In this document: piece after piece, positions 14,636 through 38,721 of the stretch
Layout of the letters: the number at the start of each line of letters is the position of its first letter
Position numbering within the stretch: the stretch's first letter is position 1
From: a bacterium
Lineage (GTDB): Bacteria > Patescibacteriota > Patescibacteriia > UBA2591 > MWDC01
Direction: 5' to 3'
Length of the DNA stretch: 45,492 nt
Assembly (NCBI GenBank): GCA_021158435.1
Contig: JAGGUQ010000010.1
Span: 1 to 45,492, forward strand
Notes under the pieces: generated by a model
Databases searched by the model: none
What the model was told of the DNA's origin: nothing
Seen by the model: the letters and a program-made list of their open reading frames with translations, nothing else
Program-made: the position numbers and the translations under genes

Positions 14636-16831
14636 ATGAGGAAGGATTGGCAAAATTTATTATTAAAAATAATTTACTTTGGTAATATTTTAATTTTATT
14701 CCTGCCTCTTTTAGTCTTAAAAAAGACAATTTTCCCTTTTGTTTTTCCAAAAGTCATATTTTTTAGGATTATTGTAGAGATAATTTTTTTCCTTTGGTTG
14801 GGATTAGCTTTATTATATAATAAAGAATTCAGACCGAATTTAAGAAATCCTTTAGTTCTTAGTTTAAGTATTTTTATTTTTGCTCTTGTTCTTTCAGGAA
14901 TCTTTGGGTTAGATGTTTATCGCTCTTTTTTTTCCAATCAAGAAAGAATGACTGGAGTGATTACCTGGATTCATTTTTGGTTATGGTTCTTGGTTTTAAT
15001 TTCAGTAATTAAAACTCAGAAACAGATTAAATTTCTAATCTGGGCTAGTTTAGTAGTTTGTTTCTTAGTTGGGATTTATGGCTTGGGACAAAAATTAGGC
15101 CTTCAGTTTTTAATTAAGCAGGATCAGGCTCGCTTATGTTCTACTTTGGGAAATCCGATTTTTGTTGGGGCTTATGCCTTAATTAATTTTTTTCTTGCTT
15201 GTTTTATTTTTGTTGAAGAAAAAACTAAGTGGAGATTCTTGGCCTTATTTTTTGCGCTTTTTAGTTTTTTGATTATTCTTTTGTCTGCTTCACGGGGAGT
15301 AATCCTGTCTTTAATAATTGGTTTGATTTTGTGCTTAGGTTTATTGGTTTTTCAGATAAAAAACAGAAAAAAAAGAATTATTTTAGGATTGGTTTTTATT
15401 GGCGCAATTATTGTTTTAACTGCGGGAATTATTTTGATTCAAGGTAGGAATTTTGCCCATAGTCCTGTTTTTTTGCAGAGAATTTCTCATTTAATGGCTA
15501 GTGCCCAAGATAGATTAAATGCCTGGGAAATGGGTATTAATGGTTTTTTAGAAAGGCCTGTTTTAGGCTGGGGATGGGAGAATTACAATTTAATTTATAA
15601 TAAGTATTACAACCCTTCATATTTAAAAAAGGGCCTAGGTGCAACCTGGTTCGACCATTCTCACAATCAGTTAATAGATATTTTAAGCTTAAGTGGGATT
15701 ATTGGGTTTTTCTCTTATTTGCTTATTTTTCTTAGTGTTTTTTGGATTTGGAGGCAGAACAAAAATAAAAAAAGTATTAATTTCTTGCTTAGTTTAGTTG
15801 TTGCTTATTTTATTCAGAATATTTTTGTTTTTGATACACCAGCTCCTTTAATTGGCTTTTTCTTTAGTTTAGCTGTTTTTTATTTAGTCTCTGATAAAAA
15901 TAAAAGAGAGCAAGTAAGCAAAGTCCCTGTTGACAACAGAGAAACAAAGCAGATTAACCTTCCTTTACCTATTTTTGTTCTTTTTTCTTTAATTGTTTTA
16001 ATTTTCTGCTTGTGGAATTTTAACATTTTACCTTTGATAAAATCTTGTCAAGGCTATCAGGCAACGCAGATATCTAAAATTGATCTAGAAAGGGGATTGG
16101 CTTGGTTTTCTAAGTCATTAAATAGCACATCTTTTACTAATCCAGAAATAAGATGCCTTTTAAGCGAAGCTGTTTCTAAGAATATAAATCCGGAAAATAA
16201 AGATATTTATAATTCTGGTTTAAGTTTTGCTATTCAAGAAATGAAAAAGAATGTTGAAGAACATCCTTTAGATGCTCGTTATTGGCTTTATTTAGGAGAA
16301 CTATACGGATTGGCTGCATCTTTGGATAAAGAAAATCTCAGTTTAGCAGAAAGCAGTTTAAAAAAGGCATTAGAGCTTTCCCCACAAAGACAAGAAATAT
16401 ATTATGCTTTAAGCCGAATTAGCATTTTAAAAAAAGATTTTGATAAAGCATTAGATTTAGCAAGAAAAGCTGTAATTTTACAAGGAGATATTGGTATGTC
16501 TTGGTGGAATTTAGGAATTATTTATCTGCTTTCTGGAAAAGAAGAAGAATCTGGAAAAATTTTTGAAAAAGCTGTTTGGGGCAAGCATTATTATGAGCCA
16601 GGCTATGATAAATATATAGCTCAGATTTATCAAAAAGCAGGAGATTATGGAAAAGCCCTTTATTTCTGTGATAAATTGTTTAAAAATTCTCCTGATGACG
16701 TTCAGGGACAGGTTTTTTGTGTTTTTCTTGCTAAACAAGGAGGGAACAGCGAAAAATTAAGTTCTTATTTATCAAAAATACAGGAGAAGCATGAAGATTT
16801 AGCAAGGCAACTAAAAGCACAAATCCAATGA
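14636..16831 (+). CDS. O-antigen ligase-like membrane protein with C-terminal TPRs
   Basis: A 731-aa polytopic protein. About 12 hydrophobic helices lie between residues 8 and 475. The Wzy_C/O-antigen-ligase (PF04932-type) core shows LSASRGVILSLIIG near 216-230 and, in the long external loop, RPVLGWGWENYNLIYNKYY and FDHSHNQLIDILSLSGIIG (about residues 305-360), with the usual Arg and His residues. A soluble C-terminal part from about residue 540 carries TPR helices (ARYWLYLGELYGLA, DFDKALDLARKAV and others). Such proteins transfer or polymerise lipid-linked glycans outside the membrane. A paralogue with the same layout lies at 36.6 kb. pgk overlaps its end by 4 bases. Confidence 0.85.
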   Translation: MRKDWQNLLLKIIYFGNILILFLPLLVLKKTIFPFVFPKVIFFRIIVEIIFFLWLGLALLYNKEFRPNLRNPLVLSLSIFIFALVLSGIFGLDVYRSFFSNQERMTGVITWIHFWLWFLVLISVIKTQKQIKFLIWASLVVCFLVGIYGLGQKLGLQFLIKQDQARLCSTLGNPIFVGAYALINFFLACFIFVEEKTKWRFLALFFALFSFLIILLSASRGVILSLIIGLILCLGLLVFQIKNRKKRIILGLVFIGAIIVLTAGIILIQGRNFAHSPVFLQRISHLMASAQDRLNAWEMGINGFLERPVLGWGWENYNLIYNKYYNPSYLKKGLGATWFDHSHNQLIDILSLSGIIGFFSYLLIFLSVFWIWRQNKNKKSINFLLSLVVAYFIQNIFVFDTPAPLIGFFFSLAVFYLVSDKNKREQVSKVPVDNRETKQINLPLPIFVLFSLIVLIFCLWNFNILPLIKSCQGYQATQISKIDLERGLAWFSKSLNSTSFTNPEIRCLLSEAVSKNINPENKDIYNSGLSFAIQEMKKNVEEHPLDARYWLYLGELYGLAASLDKENLSLAESSLKKALELSPQRQEIYYALSRISILKKDFDKALDLARKAVILQGDIGMSWWNLGIIYLLSGKEEESGKIFEKAVWGKHYYEPGYDKYIAQIYQKAGDYGKALYFCDKLFKNSPDDVQGQVFCVFLAKQGGNSEKLSSYLSKIQEKHEDLARQLKAQIQ

Positions 16832-18778: not shown

Positions 18779-19291
18779 ATGCCAAAAACACGCAAACAAA
18801 AAGAAAAAATTATAAAAGAATTAGAGGAAACCTTAACAAAGGCTAAGATTGTTTTATTTACAGACCATTATGGTTTATCAGCCAATGAATTGAATGAACT
18901 AAGGAGCAAGTTAAGGGAGAACAATTGTAAGTATCAAGTGATAAAAAAAACTCTTTTGTGTAAGGTTGTGAATGATAATTTAAAACAAAAAGTTGAGGAA
19001 TTACAAGGGGGCCTAGGTTTAGTTTTTGGACTTGAAGATGAAATTGTTCCAGTGAAAATAGCCAGTAAATTTGCTAAAGAAAAGCAGAATTTTAAGGTTC
19101 TTGGAGGGATTTGGGGGAACGAATATTTAGGAGAACAGGATGCAGCTGATCTAGCAAAATTACCCTCAAAACAAGAATTAACTGCTTTGCTTGTAGGAGG
19201 GTTAAAGGCTCCTTTAACTCGTTTTGTTGGAGATTTGAAGTCTAATTTAGTTAAATTGGTTTATATTTTAGATAGTTTAACAAAAAAGTAA
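18779..19291 (+). CDS. rplJ: Ribosomal protein L10
   Basis: The base of the ribosomal stalk that carries L7/L12 dimers and binds 23S rRNA near the GTPase centre. The family opening KEKIIKELEETLTKAKIVLFTDHYG is split around residues 7-30. The following GLSANELNELRSKLRENN segment and VIKKTLL are typical, as are GLVFGLEDEIVPVKI and the C-terminal helix that binds L7/L12 (ALLVGGLKAPLTRFV..). The length of 170 aa is normal. The start lies directly behind the switchable leader. rplL follows after 2 bases. Confidence 0.95.
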   Translation: MPKTRKQKEKIIKELEETLTKAKIVLFTDHYGLSANELNELRSKLRENNCKYQVIKKTLLCKVVNDNLKQKVEELQGGLGLVFGLEDEIVPVKIASKFAKEKQNFKVLGGIWGNEYLGEQDAADLAKLPSKQELTALLVGGLKAPLTRFVGDLKSNLVKLVYILDSLTKK

Positions 19292-19293
19292 TT

Positions 19294-19734
19294 ATGAGCG
19301 AAGAAAAAAAACAAGAAAAAAAACAAGATGAAAAACAAGAGAAGGAGATTCCAGAAAAGTTTAAAAAAATTATTCAAGAAATAGAAAAGTTGAATATTCT
19401 GGAATTATCTCAGTTAGTAAAGGTCATGGAAGAAAAGTACGATATTTCTCCTGTAGCCATGGCTCCTACTGCTGGAGTTAGCGCAGGACAGGAAGGAGGA
19501 CAAGGGCAAGGCGAAAGTGAGCAGACAGTGTTTAATATAGAATTGACTGATGCAGGAGATAATAAAATAGGAGTGATAAAAGCACTGAGAGAAATTGTTC
19601 AGATTGGCTTAAAAGAGGCAAAGGACTTAGTAGATAATGCTCCTCAGATAGTTAAAGAAGGAGTTTCTCGTGAGGAAGCTGATGAAATTAAAAAGAAGTT
19701 AGAACAAGCTGGAGCAAAGGTTAGCTTGAAATAA
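19294..19734 (+). CDS. rplL: Ribosomal protein L7/L12 with charged N-terminal extension
   Basis: The stalk protein that recruits translation factors. The N-terminal dimerisation domain is KIIQEIEKLNILELSQLVK (about residues 25-43). A Gly/Gln/Ala-rich hinge follows (about 60-78). The C-terminal domain has FNIELTDAGDNKIGVIKALRE, then GLKEAKDLVDNAPQIVKEGV and ends in LEQAGAKVSLK. The length of 146 aa exceeds the usual about 122, because about 20 extra Lys/Glu/Gln residues precede the dimerisation domain. It is the last gene of the operon. Its terminator lies inside the convergent downstream gene. Confidence 0.95.
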   Translation: MSEEKKQEKKQDEKQEKEIPEKFKKIIQEIEKLNILELSQLVKVMEEKYDISPVAMAPTAGVSAGQEGGQGQGESEQTVFNIELTDAGDNKIGVIKALREIVQIGLKEAKDLVDNAPQIVKEGVSREEADEIKKKLEQAGAKVSLK

Positions 19735-19740
19735 CTTCTT

Positions 19741-21738
19741 TTATTTTTTCTCTAAAGGAAAAGAAAATATTCTTGTTCCATTAAGGACAAGAATATTTTC
19801 TTGTTTTTGTTTTATATCTTTTATATCATCCAAGACAGGACTAGAAATTTGTTTAATTAAATTCCCTTCCTTATCATAGATAATGACTCGGTTTGTTTTA
19901 TTTTCTGCTAAATAAAGATATTTTGTTTCAGGAGATGTACTAAAGAAATTAAGTTCAGTGATTAAAGGAAATATATTCTCAAAATTAAATGTTTGTTCTT
20001 CTCCTAGGTAAAATTTGGAAATTAAGCCATTGCTCTTAGCTAAATAAATAGAACCATCAATAGCAAAATTAACAACATTTGTAAAATTGCAGGCTTGATT
20101 TTCTTTTAACCATTTTGCGCCATTAGCAAAACCAGCAATTGTTTCAGGGTATCTAAAAATTTGATTTTGAGTTTTATCCAAGATGTAAATTCTTCCTCCA
20201 TAATAGGCAATGTTTGAAATCTCCTGATTTTCTTCTGATTTTTCAATTTTCAAAGGGGTTAAAGAATTGGTCTTAAGATTAAAGCGACTAATACCATTTT
20301 GTTTATCAACAAGGAGGATATTATCTTTGTCTAAAGAAATTATTTTTTTAATTTCAGGGATGTTTTTAAAGGAAGTAATAGCTTCACCTTGGTTAAGTTT
20401 CAAATTTATTTGATAAAGTGTATTGGTTTGTTTATTAACTAGATAAAAACTATTTTCATCTTTTGTGATTAAGTTTGTTGGGTTGAAAGGTGAGCCAAGG
20501 GTATTTAAATCAAATATAGCTGAAAGTTCAGGTAAATAATGGTATTGATAATTTTCTTCTAAGTAGGTAAGCCATTCTTGGTTTAAGTTATTAAAAACTT
20601 CTTCTGCTGTTTTGCTATTTTTTGGGAAAGATTCGAGGATATTTTTTAAGTCTTCTAAAAGAGATATTTTTTCTTTTTCTTGGGCTGAATCTAATTGTTG
20701 CTTTTTTGTCCTAAATTCAGCAGTGAAATCATCTATTAAAGCTTGTTCTTTTTGTAATTGAGCATTTTTTCTTGAGATAATGATGTTTTGAACAAGTAAA
20801 AGTAAAACAAGGACAACAGAAACAATAATGAATTTTTGCCATTTAGTTAAAGGAAAGAACTCCCTTAAATTTTTTGAAGATTTTTGAGATGACACATTTG
20901 CTTTTATTGAAGGTGATTTGCCTTGTTCAAATTCATAAGTTTGAGGACGAAAAATTTCCTCTATTCTTTCTTCTTCTGTTTTTTCTGATCCTTTTCGTTT
21001 TGCCCTTGTTTTGCTTTGTATTTTTTCTTCTTTTTCTTGTTTATTCTCCTCAATTTCTTGGTTAATTTCTTGTTTTTGGTCTTGTTCTTCTGACTTTAGA
21101 ATGAGGCCAACGAGATTAAAGTTTAACTTTCCCAATGAATCTTCATTTAGACTATTGTTTTTCAAAAGATTGGTTATTCTTTTTTCAGTAAAATAGTCAA
21201 AAAGGTAGCTAAGAGTGAAAAAAAGAATGTCACCTTTTTCAATTTTCCCACTAATAAGATTAACAAATTTATTTTCCTGTTTTTTCTCTGGCTCAATTAT
21301 TTCAACTTTATCTCCACTAATTGAAAGAAAAACAAAATTACCAAACCAAGAACAATATATTTCTTGTTCTTTAATTAAGACAAGATTCAGTTTAATTCGT
21401 TCCACCCAGTTATTTTCATCTCGTAGAGATTCTCTTTTTAGCCATTCATTGATCTGACCAATAAGATTTTCAAAATTATTTTGGATAGATTGGTTTGCTA
21501 AAAGAGGATTATAGTAGTTATCCTCTATATAGGAAGCTAATTTTTCAACAAACTTTTTACTGAATTCTTTTTGTTCTTTTTTAATGGGTTGATAAGAAGA
21601 GAAGTTGGCTAAAATATATATATCCCCAAATTTTTTAAATTTAGCTTGGGCTTTTATAGGGTAAATTAAAGGATAGTTTGTTGCTTTTTGTTGGTTGTTC
21701 CAACAAAAATGGGAAATTTTTATCTGAGTGGTTGCCAT
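19741..21738 (-). CDS. PP2C-like (pseudophosphatase) / transmembrane / beta-propeller protein
   Basis: A 665-aa protein with three parts. Residues about 1-215 resemble a PPM/PP2C phosphatase fold: GDIYILANFSSYQ in place of the usual VADGMGGH strand, LVLIKEQEIYCSWFGNFVFL for the VGDSR strand, and KIEKGDILFFTLSYLFDYF for the GD.LLL.SDGL helix. The metal-binding aspartates are absent, so activity is doubtful. After an acidic Q/E/K linker, one membrane helix (KFIIVSVVLVLLLLVQN, about 300-320) and a coiled-coil segment come next. The last about 265 residues look like beta-propeller blades (FYLVNKQTNTLYQINL, ILLVDKQNGISRFNL, IYILDKTQNQIFRY). The propeller would be extracellular. Function unknown. 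It diverges from tsaB. Confidence 0.7.
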   Translation of the reverse strand: MATTQIKISHFCWNNQQKATNYPLIYPIKAQAKFKKFGDIYILANFSSYQPIKKEQKEFSKKFVEKLASYIEDNYYNPLLANQSIQNNFENLIGQINEWLKRESLRDENNWVERIKLNLVLIKEQEIYCSWFGNFVFLSISGDKVEIIEPEKKQENKFVNLISGKIEKGDILFFTLSYLFDYFTEKRITNLLKNNSLNEDSLGKLNFNLVGLILKSEEQDQKQEINQEIEENKQEKEEKIQSKTRAKRKGSEKTEEERIEEIFRPQTYEFEQGKSPSIKANVSSQKSSKNLREFFPLTKWQKFIIVSVVLVLLLLVQNIIISRKNAQLQKEQALIDDFTAEFRTKKQQLDSAQEKEKISLLEDLKNILESFPKNSKTAEEVFNNLNQEWLTYLEENYQYHYLPELSAIFDLNTLGSPFNPTNLITKDENSFYLVNKQTNTLYQINLKLNQGEAITSFKNIPEIKKIISLDKDNILLVDKQNGISRFNLKTNSLTPLKIEKSEENQEISNIAYYGGRIYILDKTQNQIFRYPETIAGFANGAKWLKENQACNFTNVVNFAIDGSIYLAKSNGLISKFYLGEEQTFNFENIFPLITELNFFSTSPETKYLYLAENKTNRVIIYDKEGNLIKQISSPVLDDIKDIKQKQENILVLNGTRIFSFPLEKK
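19761..19813 (+). terminator. Terminator of rplJ-rplL inside the convergent gene
   Basis: AAGAAAATATTCTTG (19761-19775) is the perfect reverse complement of CAAGAATATTTTCTT (19788-19802). The stem extends by three more pairs with a one-base bulge around the ATTAA loop. TTGTTTTTGTTTT follows. rplL ends at 19734, so the hairpin lies 26 bases downstream but within the last codons of the minus-strand gene. Confidence 0.75.
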
Positions 21739-21779: not shown

Positions 21780-22214
21780 ATGCAAACAAAATCTGTAAAG
21801 ACATATATTTACTTTAATACCTTATTCCCCAGAAAAAAAATTTGGCTGATTAGAGAGAATAAAATTATTCAAAGGGTTTATTTTCGCTCAAAGAAAAACA
21901 GAGAAGAGCCGATTTTGTTTTGCTTAGATAAAATTTTAAAAAAATCAAATTTAAAAATTGAAAATATATCAGCTATTATTGTCAATAAAGGGCCAGGACA
22001 TTTTACTAGTGTTCGTAAAATTTTAATAGTTGTAAACATCTTAAGTTGGTATATAGACATCCCTGCTTTTGGTATTGTTTTGAAAGAGGAATTAGATGAG
22101 GAACAAGAAAAAAAATTGGTTAATAAAGCTATTAATCAAGTAAATAAATTAAAAACCAAGCAGATGATTTTGCCAGTTTATTTAAAAGGGGCAGATATAA
22201 AAAAATCTAATTAA
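21780..22214 (+). CDS. tsaB: Short TsaB-like protein (t6A biosynthesis)
   Basis: TsaB is the non-catalytic partner of TsaD in making threonylcarbamoyladenosine at position 37 of ANN-decoding tRNAs. The diagnostic stretch is ENISAIIVNKGPGHFTSVRK near residues 60-80, matching GPGSFTGLR of the family. It is followed by a helix and IDIPAFGIV. The protein has 144 aa where common TsaB has about 220. The C-terminal half of the ASKHA fold is replaced by a short Lys-rich tail. Reduced TsaB is plausible in CPR but makes the assignment less than certain. The start is the first ATG after an AT-rich divergent promoter region (TATTAT near 21762). The ROK kinase gene follows 9 bases later. Confidence 0.72.
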   Translation: MQTKSVKTYIYFNTLFPRKKIWLIRENKIIQRVYFRSKKNREEPILFCLDKILKKSNLKIENISAIIVNKGPGHFTSVRKILIVVNILSWYIDIPAFGIVLKEELDEEQEKKLVNKAINQVNKLKTKQMILPVYLKGADIKKSN

Positions 22215-27387: not shown

Positions 27388-28779
27388 ATGGCCAAACAGG
27401 ATAAAAAGGAAAATTTAGATAAATATGAACTCTGGCAAAGCGTTCTTGGCGAGCTAGAGCTCCTAATTTCTCCAGCAAATTTTAAAACTTGGTTTTCCAA
27501 TACTTTTATTTCACGAATTGAAGATGATGGAAGGACAGCAGTTATAGCTGTCCCTAATATTTTTACTCAAAATTGGCTTAGTCAGAAGTACCATAAAGAC
27601 ATTTTAAGGGCTCTGGCAAACATTACAGACAACAAGATAGAAAGGATTGTTTATACTATTGAAAGCAATTTTCAGGCAGCTAAGCAAATGGAAGATATTT
27701 CTCGTTTAGAAAAGATGGTTGAAAAAAAGAGCAACAAAGAAGAAGAATTTAATAAATATGGCCTTAATTCTCGATATACTTTTGACACTTTTGTTGTTGG
27801 TAAAGGAAATGAATTGGCTTATGCAGCAAGCAAAGCAGTTGTTTCTCAGCCAGGAAGAAAATATAATCCTTTGTTTATTTATGGAGGAGTAGGACTTGGC
27901 AAAACTCATTTACTTCAAGCAATTGGTCATGCTTTTCTTTCTAAGAATAAAAAAGCAAAAATTCTTTATGTTAATGCTGAAGTTTTTACCAATGAATTTG
28001 TTGAAAGCATTCGTAATGGTAAAAGTAATCATTTTAAGGAAAAATACAGGAATTTAGATTTATTATTGGTAGATGATGTTCAGTTTATGGCTGGAAAAGA
28101 AAGAACAGAAGAGGAATTCTTTCATACTTTTGATAGCTTGCATCAAGAAAAAAAACAGATAGTTATTACTTCAGATAGGCCACCAAAATCTTTAGCAGCT
28201 TTAGAAAAAAGAATAGTTTCTCGTTTTGAGTGGGGTTTAATTTGTGATATTGCTCCACCAGATTTGGAGACACGTCAGGCAATCTTAAAAGCAAAAGCAA
28301 AAGAAAGAGGATATAAACTGGATGAAGAGGTGATTAATTATTTGGCTTCTCATATTCAAAGTAATGTTCGAGAATTAGAAGGCGCTTTGAATAAAATTTT
28401 TGCCTGGCATGAATTGTATAACGAACCAATTGATAGAAATGTGGCAGAAAAAATTATTAAAAGTATGGTTGCCCAGACCCCAAGAAAGTTTGTTCCTTGG
28501 GAAAAGGTACTAAAAGAAGTTGCTGACTTTTATAATATAAAACCAGAAGAAATACAAGGTATTTCTCGAAAAAGAGAATTAGTAGTTCCTCGTCAAGTTA
28601 TTATGTATTTACTAAGAGAGGATTTAGAAATGTCTTTTCCGGCAATAGGTAAAAAATTGGGGAACAGAGACCATTCTACAGCAATGCATGGTTGGGAAAA
28701 AGTCAAAAAAGAAGTAGAAAATGACGGGAGAATAAAACAAGAAATAGATTTAATTCGACAAAGAATTTATAATGATTAA
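27388..28779 (+). CDS. dnaA: Chromosomal replication initiator DnaA
   Basis: The AAA+ initiator that binds DnaA boxes and opens the origin. Domain I includes ELELLISPANFKTWFSNTF near residues 20-38. The short linker is Lys/Glu-rich. Domain III begins with RYTFDTFVVGKGNELAYAA near 130. Walker A is GGVGLGKTHLLQAIG near 166-180, Walker B is LDLLLVDDVQFMAGK, and the arginine-finger region is KRIVSRFEWGL. Domain IV carries the DNA-binding signature GNRDHSTAMHGWEKV near residue 431. The length of 463 aa is normal. dnaN does not follow, unlike in many bacteria. An ATP-cone nuclease gene does. Confidence 0.97.
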   Translation: MAKQDKKENLDKYELWQSVLGELELLISPANFKTWFSNTFISRIEDDGRTAVIAVPNIFTQNWLSQKYHKDILRALANITDNKIERIVYTIESNFQAAKQMEDISRLEKMVEKKSNKEEEFNKYGLNSRYTFDTFVVGKGNELAYAASKAVVSQPGRKYNPLFIYGGVGLGKTHLLQAIGHAFLSKNKKAKILYVNAEVFTNEFVESIRNGKSNHFKEKYRNLDLLLVDDVQFMAGKERTEEEFFHTFDSLHQEKKQIVITSDRPPKSLAALEKRIVSRFEWGLICDIAPPDLETRQAILKAKAKERGYKLDEEVINYLASHIQSNVRELEGALNKIFAWHELYNEPIDRNVAEKIIKSMVAQTPRKFVPWEKVLKEVADFYNIKPEEIQGISRKRELVVPRQVIMYLLREDLEMSFPAIGKKLGNRDHSTAMHGWEKVKKEVENDGRIKQEIDLIRQRIYND

Positions 28780-29635: not shown

Positions 29636-31306
29636 ATGGTTTTAAGCAACAACCCTTTAACCCCAGAAGAAGTAGAAGAAAAACTTAGAGAGAAGTTAAA
29701 GAACTTAAGTTTAGAGAAAATAGAAGAGAATACTAAAAAGCTAGCCCAAAGTTCAGGAATGCCTTATATTCGGCTTAAGGGTTTTCCCATTACCCCTGAG
29801 GCATTAAGATTAATTAAAGAAGATAAAGCAAGAGCAATTAAGGCAGTTTGTTTTTATCAAAGTGAAACAGAAATAAAAATTGGGACCAGTTTAGTTAATA
29901 ACCCTGAATTAGATGAGTTACTTAAACAAATAGAACAAGATACAGGAAAAAAAGTTCAGGTTTTTTTAATTTCAGAGAATAGTTTGAAATATGCTTTAGA
30001 TTTATATAAAACATTACCCCATCTTTATCAACCTTCTAAAAAAGTTGAAATTACCAGCCAGGATTTAGAAAAATTTGAGAAAAAAATTAAGACATTTCGC
30101 GATTTAAATGAAGAAGTTCAAAAAGCAAGTACTTCAGATTTCATTTCCTTAATTTTAGCTTCAGCAATTAAATCTAGAGCATCTGATATTCATATTGAAG
30201 CAGAAGAAAAAGATATAAAAGTTCGCTTCAGAATTGATGGGGTATTAGTAGATGTGGCTAGTATTGATAAGAAATTTTGGAAACAAATTATTTCGAGGTT
30301 AAAACTTTTATCCTCATTAAAATTGAATGTTAGTGACGTTCCTCAAGATGGAAGGTTTAGCATTAAGCTGCCTTCTGATAAGCTGGATATTAGAATTTCT
30401 TGTTTGCCAACAGCTTTTGGAGAAAGTGTAGTTATGAGGCTTTTACGCTCTTCAGCTGTTGGTTTGAAATTTGAAGATTTAGGATTTTTTGGTGAGGCTT
30501 TTGAAATTTTGTCTAAAGAAATACAAAGGCCAAATGGAATGATTATAACCACTGGGCCGACTGGAAGTGGTAAAACAACTACTTTGTATGCAATTCTTAA
30601 TAAAATTAACCGGCCAGAGGTAAAAATTTTAACATTAGAAGATCCTATTGAGTACCAATTGCCAGGAATAAATCAAAGCCAAATTGATAAAAGTAAAGAT
30701 TATACATTTGCTAAAGGTTTGAGATCTCTTTTAAGGCAGGATCCTGATGTAATTATGGTAGGCGAGATAAGGGATTCAGAAACAGCAAAAATTGCTGTTC
30801 AAGCAGCTTTAACTGGACACTTAGTAATTTCAACTTTACACACCAATGATGCAGCTGGGGCTATTCCTCGTTTTCTTTCTTTAGGAGTTGAGCCATATCT
30901 TTTAGCTCCAGCTTTAAATGTAATTATTGCTCAGAGATTAGTAAGAAGAATTTGCCCTGAGTGTAAAAAAGAGGCTAAATTAGATGAAGAACTGCTTCAA
31001 AGAGTAAAAAAAGACTTATCACCAGTAGCTGAAAAGCAAGGTATATCTTTAGACAATTTAACCTTTTATAAAGGGGAAGGGTGTAGTAATTGTCAAGGTT
31101 TAGGTTATCGTGGAAGAATAGGTATTTATGAGGTTTTAAAAGTAGATTCGGAAATTGAAAAGCTAATAAGCAAAGGAGATGTTTCTGAGTATGATATAAA
31201 ACAAGCAGCAGACAAACAAGGAATGGTAACTATGGTCCAGGATGGTTTGATTAAAGCAGTTAAAGGCATTACTACTGTTGAGGAAGTTTATAGAGTTATT
31301 GAATAA
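29636..31306 (+). CDS. GspE/PilB-type secretion ATPase
   Basis: A hexameric ATPase that drives assembly of type IV pili or type II pseudopili. Walker A is TGPTGSGKTTTLY near residue 307. Asp-box and Walker B regions follow (ILTLEDPIEYQLPGINQSQ, RQDPDVIMVGEIRD), and the His box is LTGHLVISTLHTNDA. The zinc-binding site has CPECK and later CSNCQGLGYRGRIGIYE with four cysteines. The N-terminal part (about 130 residues) is shorter than in classical GspE. No pilC, pilin or pilT gene lies within the window, so the rest of the machine must be elsewhere. It starts 4 bases after the ATP-cone gene. Confidence 0.93.
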   Translation: MVLSNNPLTPEEVEEKLREKLKNLSLEKIEENTKKLAQSSGMPYIRLKGFPITPEALRLIKEDKARAIKAVCFYQSETEIKIGTSLVNNPELDELLKQIEQDTGKKVQVFLISENSLKYALDLYKTLPHLYQPSKKVEITSQDLEKFEKKIKTFRDLNEEVQKASTSDFISLILASAIKSRASDIHIEAEEKDIKVRFRIDGVLVDVASIDKKFWKQIISRLKLLSSLKLNVSDVPQDGRFSIKLPSDKLDIRISCLPTAFGESVVMRLLRSSAVGLKFEDLGFFGEAFEILSKEIQRPNGMIITTGPTGSGKTTTLYAILNKINRPEVKILTLEDPIEYQLPGINQSQIDKSKDYTFAKGLRSLLRQDPDVIMVGEIRDSETAKIAVQAALTGHLVISTLHTNDAAGAIPRFLSLGVEPYLLAPALNVIIAQRLVRRICPECKKEAKLDEELLQRVKKDLSPVAEKQGISLDNLTFYKGEGCSNCQGLGYRGRIGIYEVLKVDSEIEKLISKGDVSEYDIKQAADKQGMVTMVQDGLIKAVKGITTVEEVYRVIE

Positions 31307-36579: not shown

Positions 36580-38721
36580 ATGACTCTAACTAAAGAAAAA
36601 CTAGCAAAGTTTTTTCAAGTGTCAGAGGAATCGATTTATTTATTGATTATATTTCTTGTTCCACTTACTTTTAGCCTGTCCATTTATAATCATTGGCAAA
36701 TGGCTAAAAATATTGTTTTCCAAAGTTTAGTTGAAATTTTGTTTTTTCTTTTTCTTTCACAGGTTATTATTTTTGGTTTGCCAAAAGAAAAAATAAAAAA
36801 ATCTTTAAAATTTATTCTTCCTGCTTTCATTTTTATTTTATCTTTACTAATTGCAACTATTTTTTCTCCAGTTAAATGGATGAGTTTCTGGGGTGAATGG
36901 CAAAGAAAAATGGGTTTGTTAACCTGGGTTCACTTTTTTGTCTTTTATTGTATCTTTGTTTTGCTTGATAAAAATAAAGCGCAACTAAAAAGAATTTTTT
37001 TAGTAGTTGTTTTTACCTTGTTTTTGGTTAATTTATATGGGTTTATTCAGTTTTTCCGTTACGATCCTTTTTCCTGGAATTTAGAATTGCCAGTACTAAA
37101 AGTGTTAGATTATAGGGTTTTTTCTACTTTAGGCCAGCCCAATTTTCTGGCTTCTTGGTTAATTTTAACGATTCCTTTTTTAATTATTTGTCTTGTTCAT
37201 TCTCACAAATTCTTGGTCCGCTATTTATTATTTATTCTTATTTTTAGTAGTTTAGTTATTCTTATTCTAACTCAAAGTAGGGGAGGGTTAATTGGCTTTT
37301 TTTCTAGTTTATTTTTTTGCCTTTTTTGTTTTGGTTTATTCAAACTAAAGAAAAAAATTATTCCCTTAATATTTATTATTGTTTTGCTTGTTGTTTTGTT
37401 CGTTCTAAGTACATCAAGTTTAAATTTTACTTTTAAAAATAGGTTGATTAGTTTAAGTGATATAAAATCTGCGGCAGGTTATCGTCTCCACTATTGGTTA
37501 GCAAGCTTAGAAGTAATAAAAAAACGACCATTAATAGGTTATGGTTTAGATAGTCAAAGATATTACTTAACCCCATATTACACAAAAGAGCTTGCTTTAT
37601 TGGATAAACCCAACCTTTTTTTAGACAGAGCTCATAACAACATTCTTGATGTACTTTTAACTAGTGGAATTATAGGGTTGCTTTGCTGGTGGGCTTTTGT
37701 GATTTCTATCTTTTACTGGGGGATAAAATTTATTGTAAACACTGGTAAATATAAAAAAGAAGTTATTTTTATTTTAAGCGGCATTTTTGGCTATTTAATT
37801 TCTATTTTGTTCTCTTTTCATACTCATTCACCTTTACTGTATTTCTGGCTTAGTTGTGGATTGATATCCCACCTGGTTGTTACTCAAAAAACTAAAAACA
37901 CTCATTATTTTAAAGAAAGAAAACCCCTTAACCCTCCTTTTGTTTATCTGTTTATTATTGCTTTATTTTTGATTTTAGGGATTTTTGTTGTCTGGTTGAT
38001 TAATAGCTACCAATATTTAGCTAGTCATTATCTTTTAAAATCAAAAACATCTTTAATTGAATTTCAATTAGACAAAACTTATGATTTTGCTCTTAAATCA
38101 GTAAAATACGGCAGAAAAGATCCTTATTTCAAACAAATGTTTGGAGAAACCATGTTCCAAGCAAGCCAGTTAGAACCCCAAACAAATAAAAGGATATTCT
38201 TTGTTTCTCAAGGCATAGAACAAATTCAGAGCATACCTAAAACTCTACGTCCTATAGAAGCTAAAATAAATCTTCCTCTTTTGTTAATGGAAAGAATAAG
38301 ATTAACTGGCAATGATAATGACAAACAATATGCTGAGAATCTTTATCAAGAACTAACAAGCTATGTACCTCAATGTTCCCTGGTCTGGTCTTTGTGGGCT
38401 GAATTAGAGTTGGTTTTGAAAAATTATGATCAAGCAATCCAAAAAGCTGAAAAAGCTATATCTTTACTACCTGATTACACTAAAAGTCTTTACCCTGATA
38501 TTGTAATTGAGGAAATCGTTTTTGCTAATGATAGATTGGCCAGAGCTTATTTTCAAAAAGGTAATGTAGAAAAAGCTTTAGATATTTATTCCAAAGCTTT
38601 AAAAATTGCTCCTCGGACGCCTTTTATCTGGCAAAGAATTGCTTTAATTTATCAATCTCAAGGACAAACCAAAAAAGCAGCCCAAGCTATTAAACAGAAA
38701 GAAAAATTTGAAAACTATTAA
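36580..38721 (+). CDS. Second O-antigen ligase-like protein with C-terminal TPRs
   Basis: A 713-aa polytopic protein with the same plan as the 14.6 kb gene. About 12 helices lie in the first about 470 residues. The ligase core has ILTQSRGGLIGFFSS near residue 230 and KKRPLIGYGLDSQRYYL with LFLDRAHNNILDVLLTSGIIGLL near 320-370, keeping the R and H-N pattern of the external loop. The C-terminal part has TPR-like repeats (NYDQAIQKAEKAISLLP, NVEKALDIYSKALKIAP, GQTKKAAQAIKQKEK). It would polymerise or attach lipid-linked glycans outside the membrane, and here it closes the glycan cluster. The rmuC start region follows closely. Confidence 0.85.
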   Translation: MTLTKEKLAKFFQVSEESIYLLIIFLVPLTFSLSIYNHWQMAKNIVFQSLVEILFFLFLSQVIIFGLPKEKIKKSLKFILPAFIFILSLLIATIFSPVKWMSFWGEWQRKMGLLTWVHFFVFYCIFVLLDKNKAQLKRIFLVVVFTLFLVNLYGFIQFFRYDPFSWNLELPVLKVLDYRVFSTLGQPNFLASWLILTIPFLIICLVHSHKFLVRYLLFILIFSSLVILILTQSRGGLIGFFSSLFFCLFCFGLFKLKKKIIPLIFIIVLLVVLFVLSTSSLNFTFKNRLISLSDIKSAAGYRLHYWLASLEVIKKRPLIGYGLDSQRYYLTPYYTKELALLDKPNLFLDRAHNNILDVLLTSGIIGLLCWWAFVISIFYWGIKFIVNTGKYKKEVIFILSGIFGYLISILFSFHTHSPLLYFWLSCGLISHLVVTQKTKNTHYFKERKPLNPPFVYLFIIALFLILGIFVVWLINSYQYLASHYLLKSKTSLIEFQLDKTYDFALKSVKYGRKDPYFKQMFGETMFQASQLEPQTNKRIFFVSQGIEQIQSIPKTLRPIEAKINLPLLLMERIRLTGNDNDKQYAENLYQELTSYVPQCSLVWSLWAELELVLKNYDQAIQKAEKAISLLPDYTKSLYPDIVIEEIVFANDRLARAYFQKGNVEKALDIYSKALKIAPRTPFIWQRIALIYQSQGQTKKAAQAIKQKEKFENY

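Follow-up and report, generated by a model that had tools for sequence, protein, structure and literature searches.

We identified a patescibacterial gene encoding a membrane protein in which a PPM/PP2C-fold domain, stripped of the residues of an active phosphatase, is combined with a six-bladed beta-propeller, and which has relatives throughout the phylum. The gene lies at positions 19741–21738 on the minus strand of the window, that is, the entire 45-kb stretch of DNA analyzed here. It starts with ATG, encodes 665 amino acids uninterrupted by stop codons and is present once in its genome (552 kb in 29 contigs). The protein consists of an N-terminal PPM/PP2C-fold domain followed by one transmembrane (TM) helix, a helical stalk of ~75 residues and an NHL-type propeller. 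Taken jointly, we hold the fold, the architecture, the loss of catalytic residues and the wide conservation with high confidence.

Searches of the window protein against Pfam and NCBIfam yielded no model above cut-off; for Pfam this included the propeller models and the kinase domain. Among 47 family members, Pfam detected no PP2C domain, but only weak propeller-type and unrelated matches. The assignment of the N-terminal domain (residues 1–219; 21082–21738, minus strand) comes from more sensitive comparisons. Searched against the sequences of the PDB, the family profile matched Staphylococcus aureus Stp1 in two colinear stretches with an e-value of 7e-7, and more weakly PPM1H and TAB1. An alignment of the N-terminal part of 114 members, compared by hhalign with ten genuine PP2Cs from the same phylum, gave a probability of 96.7% and an e-value of 3.7e-10 over 188 columns. 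When the family alignment was reversed, or its columns shuffled in eight control runs, the probability fell to 0.0–0.1%. Because of this difference, and because the layout recurs in 114 relatives across the phylum, the match goes beyond chance.

An AlphaFold2 model of residues 1–225, built from five sequences (pLDDT 74.3, pTM 0.76), was compared with the PDB by Foldseek. Among the 50 best matches listed, all 50 had the PPM fold; they included SpoIIE, Stp1, PppA, RsbX, PstP and Pseudomonas aeruginosa RssB, with a best e-value of 1.6e-5 and TM scores of ~0.4–0.6. The domain shows the central beta-sandwich, the flanking helix pairs and the colinear motifs of the PPM/PP2C fold superfamily. An earlier note on this DNA had proposed a PP2C-like N-terminal domain and had offered its own test, namely that a predicted domain of another fold would speak against it; profiles, hhalign and structure prediction all agreed with the proposal.

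The residues that bind metal in PP2C enzymes have largely disappeared. In the alignment with the genuine PP2Cs of the phylum, the aspartate of the DG motif corresponds to N45 (within LANFS, residues 43–47; 21598–21612, minus strand) and the GD motif to G133-N134 in WFGN (WFGNFV, residues 131–136; 21331–21348, minus strand). The T/S-D-G motif corresponds to L176-S177-Y178 in TLSYLF, with S177 in place of the aspartate and Y178 in place of the glycine (FFTLSYLFDY, residues 173–182; 21193–21222, minus strand). The strings ANFSSY, CSWFGN and TLSYLF, in which the aspartates had been reported as replaced, are present at these places.

The same pattern was found across the family. DGxG occurs in 0 of the 114 members, GDS in 1 and T/SDG in 5, with two or more together in none, compared with 9, 10 and 10 of the ten reference PP2Cs. 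At the aligned catalytic positions, no member has aspartate at all three and 80 of the 114 have it at none; the position of S177 is aspartate in 6%. We searched specifically for a member with an intact active site and found none among the 114 relatives, and the set of metal-binding aspartates in the DG, GD, T/S-D-G and DD motifs that marks a catalytic PP2C is lacking. When 260 columns were ranked by entropy (counted from 0), G133 and G164 took ranks 1 and 2, making G133 the second most conserved column, whereas S177 ranked 136 and N134 ranked 181. The motif columns drift while the structural columns are fixed, and at the level of sequence the pattern is one of a fold retained and a chemistry lost.

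We consider it very improbable that the protein is an active phosphatase whose metal site departs from the canonical one. The motif-2 position is acidic in 64% of the members (E in 50% and D in 14% of 113), and PHLPP2 and TAB1, which count as pseudophosphatases, each retain one bound metal ion (PMC12002173). Against this, only 1 of the 114 members has D or E at all three tested positions, and the columns of motifs 5 and 8 are variable.

The PPM domain is followed by a charged linker of low complexity (residues 220–297; 20848–21081, minus strand) with little conservation and a pLDDT of ~25 from residue 221 onward. Hydropathy analysis then gave a single strong TM helix at residues 303–321 (20776–20832, minus strand; value 3.03), consistent with the membrane helix that had been proposed to link the two halves. 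Its N-terminal flank is the more positive one in 101 of the 114 members, from which, according to the charge rule, we infer an N-in/C-out orientation with a cytosolic PPM domain and an external propeller. Next to the helix follows the stalk (residues 322–397; 20548–20775, minus strand), predicted by AlphaFold2 as helices with pLDDT values mostly of 77–88 and marked by a conserved A/DE/L/LP pattern. Neither this stalk nor the distribution across the phylum had been mentioned in the earlier note.

The C-terminal ~267 residues (399–665; 19744–20544, minus strand) are modeled as a six-bladed propeller of the NHL/SMP30 type, in good agreement with the ~265 residues of external propeller suggested before. 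Foldseek matched this part to Drp35 (e-value 4e-11), to the NHL domains of Thin and Brat, and to Pizza6, with TM scores of up to 0.74. In the profile search of PDB sequences it matched Thin, Brat and the NHL domain of PknD, the latter with an e-value of 0.006. Both approaches point to six four-stranded blades with an NHL-like sequence. The full-length model, built from five sequences, has a mean pLDDT of 64. The conserved propeller residues mostly correspond to the general NHL blade pattern and indicate no ligand site.

Each half of the protein has bacterial precedents. Mycobacterium tuberculosis PknD combines a Ser/Thr kinase, a TM helix and an NHL propeller; it shares with the family a cytosolic domain of a signalling fold, a single TM segment and an external six-bladed NHL propeller, the orientation in our case following from the charge rule only. 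In the family, a degenerate PPM fold takes the place of the kinase domain, and a helical stalk separates the TM helix from the propeller. RssB of Escherichia coli and P. aeruginosa, a receiver joined to a PPM-fold effector domain, provides an example of a bacterial PPM fold used as a protein-binding module: in E. coli, this domain lacks active-site residues and acts in protein binding (PMC7226468). RssB is, however, a soluble response regulator and ClpXP adaptor without a TM helix or propeller. The bacterial PP2Cs Stp1 and PstP share the fold, and here lies the best sequence-profile match of the family, but they are enzymatically active and retain the metal-binding aspartates that the family has lost. 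The eukaryotic pseudophosphatases TAB1 and PHLPP2 likewise have a PPM fold with an altered active site in non-catalytic use (PMC12002173), but are joined to other partner domains and keep their single metal ion.

In the literature on bacterial pseudophosphatases we found none with a PPM, TM and propeller layout, and the main texts of papers on protein families enriched in the CPR (PMC6744442), on type IV secretion systems (T4SS; PMC12102498) and on transposon sequencing in Southlakia (PMC10633639) describe no such protein. The remark that no named system of this kind was known held in the libraries searched. Whereas the halves have precedents in RssB and PknD, their combination and its phylum-wide status appear to be undescribed in the searchable literature.

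Of 58 genomes sampled at levels from genus to class, 56 yielded relatives in a protein search. A profile of 47 members matched 236 of 287 genomes drawn evenly across the Patescibacteria (~82%), and 219 of 265 genomes of good quality. The copy number is mostly one, second matches being mostly the other half of the same reading frame. No copy was detectable in ~18% of the sampled genomes, whole families included, suggesting that the function is dispensable or replaced in some lineages. A wider profile of 68 sequences, applied to the genomes without a match, found mostly short coiled-coil/TM matches, and some lineages seem to do without the gene. Two reading frames in such genomes stood apart. 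One, 273 amino acids long (L220, G098:C3:62109-62747), aligns with no more than the N-terminal section of the profile; its genome has no other match to the family, and the frame may encode either a relative that stands by itself or an ordinary PP2C. The other, of 581 amino acids, matches both the N- and the C-terminal part in a genome (G282) without a match to the main profile.

A link to Ser/Thr kinases had also been suggested, and the survey that we performed did not bear it out. Pkinase scored above cut-off in 26 and PP2C_2 in 22 of 192 genomes of the phylum, and neither a Ser/Thr kinase nor a genuine PP2C was found when the gene's own genome was searched for these domains. Since the gene is found in 82% of the genomes, a need for a Ser/Thr kinase circuit is unlikely, and on this distribution we rejected a classic kinase/phosphatase circuit. 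The protein might instead act as an antagonist or reader within such a circuit and compete for phosphoproteins with a real PP2C, as the relation of its fold to Stp1 and PstP and the PknD-like layout would allow; this too is highly improbable, as the gene is conserved in kinase-free genomes. Partner-switching with RsbW-type kinases was also considered and dismissed: HATPase_c_2 matches are many in the phylum, most of them in long reading frames of probable histidine kinases, but there are none in the gene's own genome. In one genome without the family (G121), a frame of 759 amino acids with a long C-terminal extension (L158) encodes a genuine PP2C that has the DG and TDG motifs.

We surveyed the gene neighborhoods at 69 loci, where two arrangements dominate. 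In the first, to which the window belongs, the gene faces rplJ and rplL, and members of clusters c2 and c5 adjoin it at 27 and 18 of the 69 loci, respectively. In the window, these convergent neighbors, recognized by their translations, lie at 18779–19291 (rplJ) and 19294–19734 (rplL) on the plus strand. The opposite flank commonly carries a divergent gene for a winged-helix regulator of ~200 amino acids (28 of 69 loci), located directly upstream (e.g., L081:5380-5937), and then a tsaB-like gene (cluster c7, 17 of 69 loci). The winged-helix protein is a candidate regulator of the gene; it is missing at the window locus, and a search of the same genome found no homolog. There, the divergent neighbor is the TsaB-like gene itself (TsaD fold, Pfam PF00814, 144 amino acids; 21780–22214, plus strand). 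The window also contains dnaA and a gene for a PilB-like T2SSE ATPase (27388–28779 and 29636–31306) within 10 kb of the gene, as well as two genes for O-antigen-ligase-domain proteins with TPR repeats (14636–16831 and 36580–38721).

At ~14 loci of the first arrangement, the dcw genes mraZ, rsmH, ftsL, murF and one for a PBP are close by. A regulator of envelope growth or division that couples the state of the wall outside to the peptidoglycan machinery would be in line with this, and with a SpoIID-domain protein that shares an operon with the gene in another branch. The dcw genes are, however, on the opposite strand with the regulator gene in between, they do not occur at this place in the window, and positional conservation alone can yield such a pattern. 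We regard this role, a more specific form of the receptor or scaffold reading preferred below, as rather unlikely.

The SpoIID-domain protein belongs to the second arrangement (13 loci; e.g., L112–L119 and L193–L199), an operon of genes for the SpoIID-domain protein, which has a coiled coil, a PH-like membrane protein, a DUF5657 protein and the protein studied here, usually followed by smpB. The PH-like protein was assigned by eye and had no Pfam match. This operon adjoins arrays of VirB2-type T4SS pilin genes, and in two closed genomes genes for PrgI, a TrsD-like protein and VirB4 lie ~14 kb from the block, near dnaA. DUF5657 scored above cut-off in 10 of 42 genomes with the gene and in 0 of 38 without it, a restriction to carriers that is confounded by lineage and may be a lineage effect.

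These loci would fit an accessory or structural part of a T4SS that anchors or gates the apparatus at the envelope, and we also counted in its favor that T4SS are widespread in Patescibacteria (PMC12102498) and essential in Southlakia (PMC10633639). Yet VirB4 was found equally in 38 of 40 genomes with the gene and 38 of 40 without it, which rules out an obligate T4SS component. Most of the 69 loci have no T4SS genes nearby, pilin genes are close in one branch only, and the genome studied here carries its T4SS genes on other contigs (C19, C9). Neither co-occurrence with VirB4 nor position within T4SS loci marks the protein as a T4SS component of Patescibacteria, and we consider an accessory role unlikely. 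As the neighborhoods differ between branches, adjacency is weak evidence in general.

We favor, with moderate confidence and by analogy, a protein that acts as a non-enzymatic receptor or scaffold and is shaped like PknD but ends inside the cell in an RssB-like, dead PPM domain. As an envelope protein, it would cross the membrane once. Its PPM-fold domain would lie in the cytosol and, devoid of metal and phosphate chemistry, serve as a protein-binding module. The membrane helix and the stalk would hold the propeller outside the cell, where it may recognize a partner protein or a ligand that is extracellular or part of the cell wall. Through the stalk, this would be coupled to the pseudophosphatase binding a partner in the cytosol. 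The inside-outside receptor with a non-catalytic phosphatase fold proposed in the earlier note stands in its parts, namely pseudophosphatase, TM helix and propeller, and the layout fits this anatomy and the analogy to PknD; non-enzymatic binding and the signalling, receptor or scaffold role are what we infer from it. A link to envelope biogenesis is our best guess from the gene neighborhoods. It is possible, though doubtful, that the family represents a nearly universal, ancestral class of receptors in which a dead PPM domain replaced a PknD-like kinase, a transmembrane relay free of phosphorylation that senses the host or the cell's own wall and is essential for epibiotic growth.

The Patescibacteria make up a large, mostly uncultured share of bacterial diversity and have very small genomes in which many envelope genes are unexplained. 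A single-copy protein that occurs in about four-fifths of the sampled genomes and is nameless in Pfam and NCBIfam is a candidate for a core function of their lifestyle, and probably belongs to the basic equipment for cell-surface sensing or organization in this phylum. It would represent a bacterial pseudophosphatase that sits in the membrane and is widely conserved, in organisms mostly without Ser/Thr kinases, and would show the PPM fold serving in signalling or scaffolding without catalysis.
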